Below are positions 29,589 to 38,381 of a stretch of DNA of 49,069 nt, in pieces (positions within the stretch are counted from its first letter, which is position 1; each line of letters starts with the position of its first letter). The notes beneath the pieces were generated by a model, which did not search any database, was not told where the DNA came from, and saw only the letters and a program-made list of their open reading frames with translations. A program made the position numbers and the translations under genes. Origin of the DNA: an uncultured bacterium (GTDB lineage Bacteria > Vulcanimicrobiota > CADAWZ01); contig CADASF010000025.1 in NCBI GenBank assembly GCA_902790465.1, positions 1-49,069 of the forward strand, given 5' to 3'.

Positions 29589-31142
29589 ATGCAAGAATTA
29601 CCAATAGGAATGCAAGATTTTGAAAGTATTAGAGAAGATAATAATTATCTTTATGTTGATAAAACAGAAAAATTACTTCAACTTGCTAAAACCAAAAAAA
29701 GTTATTTTCTTTCTCGTCCTCGTCGTTTTGGAAAATCTCTTACTTTGTCAACATTAGAAGCTATGTTTAAAGGCAAAGCTGAATTATTCAAAGGGCTTTA
29801 TGCAGAGGAATGGGTAGAAGAACAAGCAAAACATCCAAGTCCAGTTATAAAATTAGATATGAGTCTTTTAGGAGATTACACAAACAGACAAGAATTAAAA
29901 TCTGCACTTATTGATTATCTTGAAGAGATTATAGATGATTATAATTTAAATATTGAATTAAAAGAAAATGCAGGTCGTATTCTTTTAAAAATTATAAAAG
30001 CATTATATAAACAATTTGGATATGTAGTACTTCTTATAGATGAATATGATAAACCAATAACAGACAATATAAATAATTTAGAAAAAGCAAACGAAATGAG
30101 AGAAACTCTTCGTTCATTTTATGGTGTTTTAAAGGGATGCAGTCAAATAAAATTTATAATGATAACTGGTGTTTCAAAATTTAGTAAAACAGGTGTGTTT
30201 TCTTGTTTAAATAATTTAGAAGATATATCAATGTCAAAAGAATATTGTGATATAGTTGGATATACTCAACAAGAGCTTGAAGATAATTTTGTTGATTGGC
30301 TTAAAAAAATAGAAAAAGAATTATCTATGAGTAGAGAAGAGTTAATTGCTAAAATAAAAGAATATTATGATGGTTTTTCATTTGATGGAATAGTAAGAGT
30401 ATATAATCCATTTTCAGTATTAAATTTTTTAAAACAAGGATATTTTGATAATTACTGGTATTATTCAGCTACTCCATCTTTTCTTACTAAATATTTAAAA
30501 GATCACAAAATCAAAGAACCGAAAGAATATATACAAAAAAAAGTAACTTCAAATTTTACGGATTCCCACGAAATAGAAAATGCAAGTGTAGAGAGTTTCT
30601 TATATCAAGCAGGTTATTTGACAATAAAAGAAAGAAAAGGTAATATCCTTATTCTTGATTATCCAAATGAAGAAGTAAAAAGTTCAATGGATAGTCTTTA
30701 TCTTGAAAATTTTTATAATATTAAAGATTTTGCTGGATTTAGTAATGATATTTGGGAATCTTTGGAAGCAGAAAATATTCCACAAATAGTGAGTATATTT
30801 AATGAAGCATTAAAAGGTGTTCCCTATGACGACTACAAAGATAGAGACGAATCTTGGTATCGTTCATTATTTTTGATGTTACTTAGTGGTGCTAAAATAA
30901 CATATTTTTCAGAAGTACATACTTTTAGAGGTCGTTCTGATGTAGTCATAACATTTAAAAACAAGTTAGTTGTAGTTATTGAATTTAAATTTGCCCCAAC
31001 TTCAAAAGATGTTGACAAAAAGCGACAAGAAGGGGAAGATCAAATAAAATCGAGAGATTATGCTTCTACTTATAAGGCTACAAAAAAGATAATTACAGCT
31101 GTTTTTGTGGCAGATGATGAAACACGACAAATTGTAATGTAA
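29589..31142 (+). CDS. AAA-ATPase-like protein with C-terminal PD-(D/E)XK nuclease domain
   Basis: This 517-residue protein has the well-known AAA-ATPase_like/DUF1703 architecture. The N-terminal part has the characteristic YVDKTEKLLQL, then FLSRPRRFGKSLTLSTLEAM with the P-loop (about residues 38-57), and LLIDEYDKPI as Walker B near 152. The C-terminal domain shows FRGRSDVVI and VVVIEFKFA (about residues 448-470), the Asp and ExK of a PD-(D/E)xK nuclease. A GAAGGA ribosome binding site precedes the ATG. Such proteins occur in many paralogous copies in gut and host-associated bacteria; their role is unknown, perhaps defence or mobile-element related. tatC follows after 24 bp and may be co-transcribed. 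Confidence 0.9.
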   Translation: MQELPIGMQDFESIREDNNYLYVDKTEKLLQLAKTKKSYFLSRPRRFGKSLTLSTLEAMFKGKAELFKGLYAEEWVEEQAKHPSPVIKLDMSLLGDYTNRQELKSALIDYLEEIIDDYNLNIELKENAGRILLKIIKALYKQFGYVVLLIDEYDKPITDNINNLEKANEMRETLRSFYGVLKGCSQIKFIMITGVSKFSKTGVFSCLNNLEDISMSKEYCDIVGYTQQELEDNFVDWLKKIEKELSMSREELIAKIKEYYDGFSFDGIVRVYNPFSVLNFLKQGYFDNYWYYSATPSFLTKYLKDHKIKEPKEYIQKKVTSNFTDSHEIENASVESFLYQAGYLTIKERKGNILILDYPNEEVKSSMDSLYLENFYNIKDFAGFSNDIWESLEAENIPQIVSIFNEALKGVPYDDYKDRDESWYRSLFLMLLSGAKITYFSEVHTFRGRSDVVITFKNKLVVVIEFKFAPTSKDVDKKRQEGEDQIKSRDYASTYKATKKIITAVFVADDETRQIVM

Positions 31143-34741: not shown

Positions 34742-36037
34742 TTAGCCTTCAATTGCTTTTCGTAAATCTTTAAATTCATTGCTAACAGTTATTATATGTT
34801 TTTTTGTTTTTTCTTGTAATTCATCTAGACTCATGCCATCAAGAAAATATTTACCATCTTTTAAACAATGACTTGGAATTATGACCTCATTAAAAACATC
34901 TTCATTTTCAATAACATGCAAAATATCTGTTCCTGTCATAAGTCCACAAACATCTACACTGCTTCCCCAAAATACACTTTCTGCCTTGTGAACTCTAAGT
35001 TCAAGATTTTTTGTATCATCAAAAAATTCAGCAATTTTTTTCATATAATCATAAGTCAAACAACCTGTTATTATACTAACGTTTCTTTTATTTGGCAATT
35101 CTTTTGATATATATTTTTTCCCCTTCATAAAACTTGTCAAAAAAAGCCTCATCATGCCTATTCCATTTTCAAGTTGTGGAAAATCTCCATAATATTTAGT
35201 TTTAGGAATTTCTGTTCCTGTCTTTATAAAAAATTCATCGGCTAAATATAAAAAATTATCTACATTATGGCGTTTTTTAAATCCTCTCATGAATTTATTA
35301 GCTATTTCCATGACATCTTTCATTTCTTCAACAGTGAAAGAGCGAACTCTGTTTTGGGCATGGTATTTAGTTAAACCAACAGGTACACATGCTATAGATT
35401 CAATATTTGGATAAAAAGCCTCTAAATCTGTAAGTGTCTTTTTTAAATGTTCTCCGTCATTTATACCTGGGCATAAAACGATTTGAACATGAAGTGAAAC
35501 ATCGAGCTCAACAAGTCTTTTTATATTTTCAAGAATATTACCTGCTTTTTTATTGTTCATTAAAGATTCTCTGACTTCTGGTTCAGTTGCATGAACAGAA
35601 ACATATAAAGGTGTTAATCTCTGTTTTTCTATTCTTTCCCAATCTTCTTCTGTCAAATTTGTAAGTGTTATAAAATTTCCAAATAAAAATGACAATCTAT
35701 AATCATCATCTTTTATTTGCATAGTCTTTCTGACATCTCTTGGGTCTTGATCGACAAAACAAAAATCACATCTATTTTGACAAATTTTTATTCTGTCAAA
35801 AATTGGATTTTCAAAAGATACACCTACTGGCTCATATATAGATTTTTTTAATGAGACAGTATTTTCTTTGCCATCTCTGATATATGTTACTTTAAATTTC
35901 TTTTCAGATGTAGCAATCATCCAATCTAAAACATCTCTTAATTCTGTGTCATTTACCGATTTAACTATGTCTCCTGCCTTTAATCCTGCCTTATCAGCAG
36001 AAGAACCCTTTTCTACTTCCTGTATAATTCCAGCCAT
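34742..36037 (-). CDS. DUF512 radical SAM protein with N-terminal PDZ-like domain
   Basis: This 431-residue protein belongs to the DUF512 family that combines a short PDZ-like domain (residues 4-65, GSSADKAGLKAGDIVKSVN), a radical SAM core with Cys86, Cys90 and Cys93 (CQNRCDFC) and the DUF512 C-terminal domain (TGCLTYDYM... and SVDVCGLMTGTDIL). The cysteine triad should hold a [4Fe-4S] cluster that cleaves SAM. The reaction is unknown. It is commonly encoded next to der, as here. An AGAGGA ribosome binding site lies 7 bp upstream of the ATG, within the duplicated plsC tail (36046-36094). Confidence 0.92.
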   Translation of the reverse strand: MAGIIQEVEKGSSADKAGLKAGDIVKSVNDTELRDVLDWMIATSEKKFKVTYIRDGKENTVSLKKSIYEPVGVSFENPIFDRIKICQNRCDFCFVDQDPRDVRKTMQIKDDDYRLSFLFGNFITLTNLTEEDWERIEKQRLTPLYVSVHATEPEVRESLMNNKKAGNILENIKRLVELDVSLHVQIVLCPGINDGEHLKKTLTDLEAFYPNIESIACVPVGLTKYHAQNRVRSFTVEEMKDVMEIANKFMRGFKKRHNVDNFLYLADEFFIKTGTEIPKTKYYGDFPQLENGIGMMRLFLTSFMKGKKYISKELPNKRNVSIITGCLTYDYMKKIAEFFDDTKNLELRVHKAESVFWGSSVDVCGLMTGTDILHVIENEDVFNEVIIPSHCLKDGKYFLDGMSLDELQEKTKKHIITVSNEFKDLRKAIEG

Positions 36038-36045
36038 TATCTATT

Positions 36046-36094
36046 CCTCTGTTTTTTTATCCTCAATCTGTTTTCTTGCTTCCTCAACAGGCTT
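36046..36094. repeat. 49-bp direct repeat, copy A (plsC tail scar)
   Basis: Positions 36046-36094 are identical to 36616-36664 over 49 bp. The latter is the genuine 3' end of plsC. This copy lies between the YoeB-type toxin and the DUF512 gene. On the minus strand it would encode the plsC C-terminus (KPVEEARKQIEDKKTEE) followed by TAG, then ATAATG of the DUF512 gene, so it is probably the original plsC end. Confidence 0.9.
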
Positions 36095-36351
36095 TAATAA
36101 TGATTTTTATATTGTGCAATTTCTATTGAATCGCCAACAACTCTATAAATAAGCCTATTTTTTTCATCAATTCTTCTACTAAACCAACCAAATAAATCAT
36201 GTTTTAATGCTTCTGGCTTTCCTATTCCATTCAAAACTCCATTTGATTCAATGTCTTTTATCAAAGCATTAATTCTTTTCACTGTCTTCTTATCTTCTGC
36301 TTGCCAAGATGTATATTCTTCCCAAGAACGATCAGACCAAATTTTACGCAT
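36094..36351 (-). CDS. Txe/YoeB-family mRNA interferase toxin
   Basis: This 85-residue protein matches the Txe/YoeB toxin family over its whole length: IWSDRSWEEYTSWQAEDKKT, then KRINALIKDIE, IGKPEALKHDLFGWFSRRID and a C-terminal YKNHY in place of the usual CRYHY. YoeB toxins cleave mRNA at the ribosome. The catalytic Glu, Arg and His residues appear retained (the last His in NHY). Its ATG overlaps the end of the antitoxin gene by 8 bp, as usual for this type II system. The pair sits between plsC and DUF512 inside a 49-bp direct repeat. Confidence 0.92.
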   Translation of the reverse strand: MRKIWSDRSWEEYTSWQAEDKKTVKRINALIKDIESNGVLNGIGKPEALKHDLFGWFSRRIDEKNRLIYRVVGDSIEIAQYKNHY

Positions 36352-36604
36352 CTACTAAATTATGCTCCTTACCTTTTCCATTTTCTAATTGTTCTATTGA
36401 GTCTTTCAAATAAAGTTGATTTGTTTCAGAATAAAAAGGATCGTTTGCTTCTATTGTAAATGGAATTGAACGAGTTCTAACTATAGCTTTTAAAAGCATT
36501 GTATAAGCAGTTGACAAAGTTAATCCCATATCTTTACATAAAGATTCTGCCTGTCTTTTTAATTCACTATCAACAGACATTGTAACTTTTACTGTTTTTT
36601 CCAT
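36344..36604 (-). CDS. RelB/DinJ-family antitoxin
   Basis: This 86-residue RelB/DinJ-type antitoxin has the N-terminal ribbon-helix-helix (VKVTMSVDSELKRQAESLCK, GLTLSTAYTMLLKAIV) and a C-terminal toxin-binding part. It should neutralise the YoeB-type toxin encoded directly downstream with 8-bp overlap and autorepress the pair. Its ATG follows the plsC TAA with no gap, and its ribosome binding site (GAGGAGG) is inside the plsC 3' end, so translation is coupled to plsC. No separate promoter is visible. Confidence 0.9.
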   Translation of the reverse strand: MEKTVKVTMSVDSELKRQAESLCKDMGLTLSTAYTMLLKAIVRTRSIPFTIEANDPFYSETNQLYLKDSIEQLENGKGKEHNLVDA

Positions 36605-37276
36605 TTACTTTTCCTCCTCTGTTTTTTTATCCTCAATCTGTTTTCTTGCTTCCTCAACAGGCTTCATGATTTCAGAAATCAAATTATGTGCAAAATTTTC
36701 CATATTCTCTTTTTCTTCCTTTGCATTTGAAGCCTTTACATATTGAATTGGTTTTCCAATAACAACTTTTACTCCACGTTTAAAATGAGGAATCCCTTTT
36801 TTAATAGTGATACTATCTTTTCCATTTATAATAGAAATAGGCAATACAGGGACACCACTCATTTTAGCCAAAAGAGAAACTCCCCTTCTGCTTTCTTTTC
36901 CTTCATCTTCTTCACTTTTCATTCTTCTTCCCTCTGGAAAAATACCAACAATTTCGCCTTTTTTCAAGAGTTCAACAGCTTTTTTTATAGTTGTCATTTC
37001 TGTTTTATCTCTATCAACTGGAATTGCACCAAGAGAACGAATAAGTGGAGCTAAAAATGGAACTGTGAAAAGTTCTTTTTTAGCCATGCAGTTAACTCTT
37101 CTTGCTGATATGGCTCCAAAAATTGGAGGATCCATATAACTTGTATGATTTGCAGCAAAAAGACAACCACCTTTAAATTTTAAATTTTCTTTTCCCTCTA
37201 TTTTAAGTCCACACCCCAAAGTAAATATAGTGTTTAAAACTAAATGGACAAAATAAAACCATATATGACCGAGCAT
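36605..37276 (-). CDS. plsC: 1-acyl-sn-glycerol-3-phosphate acyltransferase PlsC
   Basis: PlsC acylates lysophosphatidic acid to phosphatidic acid at the inner membrane. The catalytic HX4D motif is NHTSYMDP (His44, Asp49), and the FPEGRR motif, equivalent to FPEGT, follows near residue 113. An N-terminal hydrophobic helix (WFYFVHLVLNTIFTLG) anchors it. I chose the ATG at 37276, just after a strong GGGAGGAG; the longer frame to 37372 lacks a site. The C-terminus ends KKTEEEK. Its last 49 coding bases are exactly repeated at 36046-36094, beyond the inserted toxin-antitoxin pair. Confidence 0.93.
   Translation of the reverse strand: MLGHIWFYFVHLVLNTIFTLGCGLKIEGKENLKFKGGCLFAANHTSYMDPPIFGAISARRVNCMAKKELFTVPFLAPLIRSLGAIPVDRDKTEMTTIKKAVELLKKGEIVGIFPEGRRMKSEEDEGKESRRGVSLLAKMSGVPVLPISIINGKDSITIKKGIPHFKRGVKVVIGKPIQYVKASNAKEEKENMENFAHNLISEIMKPVEEARKQIEDKKTEEEK
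36616..36664. repeat. 49-bp direct repeat, copy B (within plsC 3' end)
   Basis: This copy is identical to 36046-36094 and forms the functional end of plsC. The two copies are 570 bp apart and bracket the toxin-antitoxin pair exactly, like attachment or duplication scars of an integrated cassette. Confidence 0.9.
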
Positions 37277-37383
37277 TCTCTCCTCCCTCTTCTGTCCTGT
37301 AAAATAGTAAAAACTGAAAGTCTCACAATTAACCACTTTTTCTCTTAGTCTTCTTACTTTTACGGAAATCAATTTTTGTTATT

Positions 37384-37698
37384 AGGGGTGTTGGTAAACT
37401 ACCAATTAGCCACTTTTGTGCGATATAAGTAACACATTTACGCTCCTTGCCTTAATTTTTTCTCCTAAATTTTTAATTTAGGAGCTTATTTGCTCCAAGG
37501 AGAAAAAATACTAGAACGATATCCATTTTTCTGCAGTAGTTCCATGCAAATTTTACTTAGAAAACGAATGATTGTTATTATAATTTAGTATTTTTAAAGA
37601 GGAAAAAATGGCCTAGTGAACATCTTATATCCAAAAAGTGGCGTAAGCTGAAAATAAACAATGTAAATTTATAAGAAATAAAGTTTACCAACAGCCCT
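37384..37698. mobile_element. MITE-like nested inverted-repeat element 2
   Basis: Terminal inverted repeats AGGGGTGTTGGTAAACT (37384-37400) and its complement (37682-37698) match at 16 of 17 positions and are flanked by a 3-bp direct repeat ATT (37381-37383, 37699-37701). The 315-bp element has no gene. Inside is the same nested hairpin as in element 1: GCCACTTTTGTGCGATATAAG from 37409 with CTTATATCCAAAAAGTGGC ending 37642. A smaller hairpin CTCCTAAAT/ATTTAGGAG lies in the centre. It was inserted directly after the cmk stop codon and fills the gap between cmk and plsC. Confidence 0.75.
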
Positions 37699-37700
37699 AT

Positions 37701-38381
37701 TCACTTTCCTCTTTCTTCAACCAATTTCACAACTTCATCAATTACCTGTTCTGCAGTCATGTTTGTTGAATCCAAAATTATTGAATCTTCACTTGCCTTT
37801 AAAGGGGAATCCTCCCTTTCAGAATCTATTTTATCTCTATTTTCAATACTTTTTTTGATATCCTCAAATTTGACATCTTTACCAGATTCTATCTCTTCCT
37901 TAAATCTTCTTTTTGCTCTCTCTTCAACAGATGCATCGAGATAAATTTTTAACTCTGCATTTGGCATTACAACAGTTGTTATATCTCTTCCAACCATTAT
38001 AACTCCACCATTTTCTGCCATTTTTTTCTGTTGAGCAACAAGACATTTTCTCACTTCACTAATTTTGGCAACATCAGAAACATTTTTATTTACACCTGCA
38101 GATTTAATCTCTGTTGTTATATCATTGTCTGCAATATAAACTCTGCAACCTGAAGGTAAAGAAAAATCTTGTTTTAAAATAACTGGATTTTCTTTTGCAA
38201 GTTTTATGACAGAATCTTTATCAGAAATATCTATATTATTTTTTAATGCAAGCCAAGTAACAGCTCTATACATAGCCCCTGTATCAACAAAAAGCCAACC
38301 AATTTTTTTGGCAACAGATATTGCAACAGTAGTTTTTCCACTTGCTGCAGGACCATCAAATGCAATATTTATTTTTTTCAT
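37701..38381 (-). CDS. cmk: Cytidylate kinase
   Basis: This 226-residue CMP/dCMP kinase has the P-loop GPAASGKTT (residues 9-17), the DTGAMYRAVTW motif (37-47), GRDITTVV (about 126-133) and ASVEERAKRR in the lid. It is a cytoplasmic nucleotide-metabolism enzyme. A good AAAGGAAA site precedes the ATG. cmk heading a cmk-plsC-DUF512-der-plsY run is a common gene order, although a MITE-like element now separates it from plsC. It is divergent from priA with a 230-bp intergenic region that must hold both promoters; AT-rich, no clear boxes. Confidence 0.95.
   Translation of the reverse strand: MKKINIAFDGPAASGKTTVAISVAKKIGWLFVDTGAMYRAVTWLALKNNIDISDKDSVIKLAKENPVILKQDFSLPSGCRVYIADNDITTEIKSAGVNKNVSDVAKISEVRKCLVAQQKKMAENGGVIMVGRDITTVVMPNAELKIYLDASVEERAKRRFKEEIESGKDVKFEDIKKSIENRDKIDSEREDSPLKASEDSIILDSTNMTAEQVIDEVVKLVEERGK

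Follow-up and report, generated by a model that had tools for sequence, protein, structure and literature searches.

The locus described here raises the question of how a small toxin-antitoxin (TA) pair came to lie between plsC and a PDZ/radical SAM/DUF512 gene, inside a housekeeping operon, with both neighbours left whole. It bears on the means by which small TA pairs of the chromosome can move when no plasmid, phage or integron carries them. The whole stretch of DNA analysed (49,069 nucleotides) is referred to as the window and the genome that contains it as G000. The features of the locus are listed in Table 1. As the preliminary description had stated, the pair sits between plsC and the DUF512 gene; plsC lies directly upstream and the DUF512 gene directly downstream of it, and all of these genes are on the same strand.

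Table 1. Features of the plsC/DUF512 locus, with positions given as those of the window
Feature	Position	Strand	Remarks
PDZ/radical SAM/DUF512 gene	34742..36037	-	PF19238, PF04459
Downstream repeat copy	36045..36094	-	duplicated plsC 3' end, no longer translated, immediately ahead of DUF512
YoeB toxin (mRNA interferase family)	36094..36351	-	85 aa, PF06769, E 2e-29
Between repeat copies	36095..36614	-	520 bp: last 10 bp of plsC, antitoxin, toxin
RelB/DinJ-type antitoxin	36344..36604	-	86 aa, PF04221, E 3e-11
plsC acyltransferase, target gene, intact	36605..37276	-	PF01553 E 4e-30; orthologue in G001
Upstream repeat copy	36615..36664	-	last 50 bp of native plsC end before final codons

The exact duplication of the plsC end on both sides of the pair was confirmed, with its length corrected from 49 to 50 bp and its previously given coordinates accurate to within one base. 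The two copies were 100% identical, with a start-to-start spacing of 570, and formed the strongest isolated short-spaced repeat of this kind in the whole window. When four whole genomes were searched with an 80-base probe of the plsC end, two sites were found in G000 and one in G001 (a genome of the same genus), with only short weak matches elsewhere. The downstream copy overlaps the toxin stop codon by 1 nt, and the remnant past the toxin reads ...KKTEE-TAG-ATAATG, just as had been reported. The 11 bp next to the repeat differ between the copies while the 50 bp are identical, so the exact duplicated length is uncertain; that 50 bp have stayed identical points to a recent event. Inside the 520 bp between the copies only two genes were found and no recombinase, integrase or transposase gene, in agreement with the earlier claim that the insert has no integrase, and no terminal inverted repeats were found at the insert ends. 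A transposon was considered and rejected on the basis of terminal inverted repeats, a transposase within the 520 bp and a short fixed target duplication, which the insert does not display. An integrative element was rejected for want of an integrase gene within the attL-attR bounds, where there are two genes only.

The toxin scored 102 bits against the PF06769 cut-off of 27 and matched YoeB in the PDB with an E value of 6e-24. Its sequence is identical to that of E. coli YoeB at 44 of 85 residues, and E47, R66, H84 and Y85 align with E46, R65, H83 and Y84 of the latter, respectively; since these catalytic residues are all kept, the toxin is probably functional. The antitoxin, encoded upstream of and overlapping the toxin gene, scored 43.5 bits against the PF04221 cut-off of 22.4 and matched DinJ chains in the PDB (E 2.5e-4). 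Its ATG directly follows the plsC stop with no gap, and the antitoxin and toxin reading frames overlap by 8 bp. The toxin family, the catalytic residues and the overlapping two-gene operon are shared with YoeB/YefM-type and RelB/DinJ-type pairs, whereas the partner of YoeB is here a RelB/DinJ-type protein instead of a Phd/YefM antitoxin, a pairing that is annotated elsewhere too. No PhdYefM antitoxin was found in G000 or G001.

The statement that plsC and the DUF512 gene are normally adjacent was borne out by two other genomes: in G001 the plsC stop is directly followed by the ATG of the DUF512 gene (protein 96% identical), and in G002, which belongs to another genus, only 3 bp separate them. 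An empty site, which the preliminary description had proposed to look for in relatives, was present in G001, with one copy of the segment and plsC running straight into DUF512. Positions 559-619 of the G001 locus aligned to both the upstream and the downstream window copies, which is what the duplication of one target segment of at most 61 bp would give, and on the side of the upstream copy the homology runs on through the antitoxin ATGG. The insert is bounded by an exact repeat of 50 bp, of which the unoccupied G001 locus has one copy only; this argues for insertion with long target duplication, and the insertion proposed earlier was thereby upheld. As had also been proposed, plsC was kept whole, its last residues being KKTEEEK as compared with KKIEEK in G001. 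The 16 bases GAGGAAAAGTAAATGG, which in G001 precede and include the DUF512 start, are found in the window ahead of and at the start of the antitoxin gene, and the DUF512 start in the window carries the variant GAGGAATAGATAATGG and keeps an upstream GAGGA. The suggestion that the antitoxin borrows the plsC ribosome-binding site is plausible insofar as the antitoxin start lies on the native junction GAGGAAAAGTAAATGG, as before DUF512 in G001. No relative was found that has the pair without the duplicated segment, an arrangement that had been named as evidence against the insertion.

On this basis, it is concluded with a probability of roughly 0.7 that an illegitimate event, independent of any recombinase, placed the YoeB/RelB pair at the plsC/DUF512 junction and in doing so duplicated about 50 bp of the target. 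The exact and unique repeat, the empty site, the intact flanking genes and the recurrence at other TA families described below are what make this the best explanation. The inserted unit would comprise little more than its two reading frames, and the duplicated target would not exceed about 61 bp. A staggered break or a template switch may have captured the TA fragment; the short junction matches (AAATCAT beside the downstream junction and ATGG at the upstream one) would fit such capture, as weak evidence in AT-rich DNA. Owing to the duplication, the insertion would have done no harm: the end of plsC is preserved, the native start context now serves the antitoxin, and a GAGGA still lies upstream of DUF512. 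This would explain the cost-free landing of a toxin gene inside a housekeeping operon. An insert between such repeats should be prone to deletion, and deletion may be counter-selected by the killing of cells that lose the pair, so that addictive genes would be the ones to remain.

For the survey of other TA loci, those of G000 and G001 (two genomes of the genus, both draft assemblies) were collected by using the RelB, YoeB, ParE, MNT and HicA profiles, and their flanks were read. Thirteen loci with enough flank on both sides were testable; the contig-edge loci L083-L087 and L092 and the truncated locus L082 were left out. Similar scars, which the preliminary description had proposed to look for at other TA loci, were seen: 6 of the 13, the plsC locus included, have flank-to-flank repeats, and no flanking repeat was present at the other 7. 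Bracketing repeats at TA loci are recurrent across TA families in one genus. The repeat was site-unique at four of the six bracketed loci, namely those of plsC, hsdS, HicAB and an aldo-keto reductase gene, with variable lengths of about 50, 141, 38 and 35 bp, respectively. At G000:C107, a RelB/YafQ-like pair follows hsdS, the 3' end of which is repeated over 141 bp with 89% identity. At G000:C8, the terminator upstream of HicAB recurs on the far side of the pair as an exact copy of 38 bp, a repeat found nowhere else in a 578-kb sample; no empty site was found for this locus, whose upstream gene belongs to a dispersed family. At G001:C45, a RelB/YafQ-like pair lies beside the aldo-keto reductase gene with a repeat of 35 bp at 91% within a weaker 60-bp match, and an empty site with flanks 98% identical is present in G000:C9. 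The copies of this repeat differ at 3 of 35 to 12 of 60 bases, so that this could be an older insertion, or the empty site could have arisen by loss of the pair. An empty site is accordingly present for only two of the four site-unique cases.

The two remaining bracketed loci are a RelB-PIN pair upstream of an MFS gene at G001:C19 (L090), with a promoter-side repeat and a one-copy site in G000:C78, and a RelB-fused MNT/HEPN pair between terminators at G000:C77 (L077). Both were rejected as clean cases, since both repeats are dispersed in the genome, and they may reflect recombination at dispersed repeats. A phylum-wide YoeB search gave hits in 11 of 149 genomes, too few loci for a wider test. 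The loci differ from one another in repeat length, target and TA family, and none has a recombinase inside; this makes a host-driven illegitimate event likelier than a site-specific one. The idea of a minimal integrated cassette, put forward in the preliminary description, is supported as regards insertion without a recombinase; a dedicated cassette system is not indicated, the other loci being different in repeat and TA family.

The flank test was done by taking the best local alignment of the left against the right flank, and the control consisted of 4000 placements drawn at random within 449 kb of G000. Five of ten RelB-type loci scored above 99.6% of the random placements, and the other five did not rise above background. 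As a second control, 160 intervals bounded by genes and similar in size to a TA pair were scored. Only 2 of the 160 reached a score of at least 25, namely the plsC locus and an Rpn-type gene that lies between copies of the dispersed terminator. Fisher's test gave p 4e-7 for bracketed TA loci (6/13) against control intervals (1/159), p 4e-6 with the plsC locus itself removed, and p 3e-4 for site-unique repeats without the plsC locus (3/12 versus 0/159), all of these figures being based on few loci, controls from one genome and a score cut-off chosen after seeing the data. They show that repeats are enriched at TA loci, and they do not fix the exact size of the enrichment.

The same final structure would result if a tandem duplication of the plsC end had come first (or if plsC had already been accompanied by a truncated second copy) and the pair had then arrived between the copies by ordinary recombination, and an lplA-like gene elsewhere does carry a remnant of its own 3' end without a TA pair (G000:C9 6711-7706, where the reading frame opens with an 89-bp copy of that end at 79%). 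Such a course is unlikely: it requires two independent events, the segment is single-copy in G001, and the bracketing of 6 of 13 TA loci would be left unexplained. A small circle with the pair and a plsC-end copy could have entered through one homologous crossover, and could leave by the same route; this fits the geometry exactly, and repeats of 50 bp suffice for rare RecA-dependent or slippage events. It is nevertheless judged quite improbable, as no donor was found in which the pair adjoins a plsC end, plasmid and viral searches gave no close donor (YoeB relatives there were below 60% identity), and an illegitimate event would still be required to link the pair to the plsC end in the first place.

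The 3' ends of genes are often targeted by integrases, the gene being rebuilt through an identity of tens of bp, and TA pairs are common cargo, so the repeat could be read as attL and attR of a site-specific integrative element at the plsC 3' end that was later reduced to the TA pair. The locus resembles such elements in the duplicated 3' end and the whole target gene; it differs from them in having no integrase and in the variation of target and length between loci. The insert spans the antitoxin start to the toxin stop with no room for remnants, no element was found at plsC in G001 or G002, and the other bracketed TA loci have unrelated targets with repeat lengths from 35 to 141 bp, all of which makes this origin very unlikely. 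An assembly artefact or strain chimera, conceivable in a draft genome of 121 contigs with an exact repeat, is the least credible of all, as the two copies have different edges, one of which equals the G001 junction, the toxin-to-plsC-end junction would require a source of its own, and similar structures occur in two separate genomes.

Illegitimate insertion with target duplication, the reading preferred here, has a counterpart in restriction-modification genes, for which insertion with long, variable target duplication is described (Nobusato 2000 and Furuta 2010, as cited in section 7 of PMC3874152; also PMC3031569 and PMC1643837). The two have in common long variable direct repeats (order of 100 bp) with a single copy in the empty genome, and an addictive cargo linked to no known mobile element. 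They differ in that the cargo here consists of type II TA pairs of several families, the repeats are 35-141 bp and the host is a gut bacterial genus. With a TA pair as the cargo, the locus is a variant, not a strict member, of the restriction-modification class. A TA review cites work on long target duplication for restriction-modification systems only (PMC2654758), and no report of it for TA pairs was found in the open-access literature, most subscription papers being outside this search. The ccdAB-O157 pair of E. coli, at folA-apaH, is likewise a chromosomal TA pair that is polymorphic between two conserved genes; unlike the present pair, it stands in place of an intergenic segment, with 86% of the site covered in two pieces and nothing duplicated. 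The footprint of long target duplication is thus not left by every TA insertion.

TA pairs are in this way tied to an insertion pattern described for restriction-modification genes, and the duplication footprint yields insert boundaries, empty sites and ages, which makes the movement of such pairs testable across genomes. It is tentatively put forward, as a possibility held at less than even odds, that in this genus unrelated TA families repeatedly enter alone by recombinase-free events that duplicate 35-140 bp and leave the flanking genes whole, that addiction filters which of the insertions escape deletion between the repeats, and that the same insertion is a general route for restriction-modification and TA units.

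Several minor observations were made on the repeats and TA genes of these genomes. A dispersed terminator family (AGCCGTTGCGG...CCCAACGGCT) occurs at L077 2017, 2670 and 3646 and at G000:C5 1732 and 2908, and brackets the Rpn-type gene on C5 and the MNT/HEPN pair on C77. In the latter (L077 2786-3229), a RelB-like N-terminus and an MNT nucleotidyltransferase form a fusion in one reading frame, and a HEPN-like gene comes next. Another dispersed repeat (TTTGGCGAAC...AAATAGGGA) is intergenic and often close to the start of a gene; it was found at L090 136-205 and at G000:C5 7754, C9 37635 and C10 2056 and 19953. At the same hsdR-like stop codon (L088 774, L122 1946), G001 has a YoeB/RelB pair and G000 an AAA-ATPase gene, with nearly the same ribosome-binding site; this AAA-ATPase gene resembles one at window 29589-31142. 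A RelB antitoxin intact in G001 is truncated at the orthologous place in G000 (L082 3568-3717, L086 161-433), a case of TA decay. In the window itself, a MITE-like element with 23-bp imperfect inverted ends (GTTATTAGGGGTGTTGGTAAACT...) lies at 37378-37704 between cmk and plsC, and a similar sequence is present in G000:C78 (L119 about 250-520).
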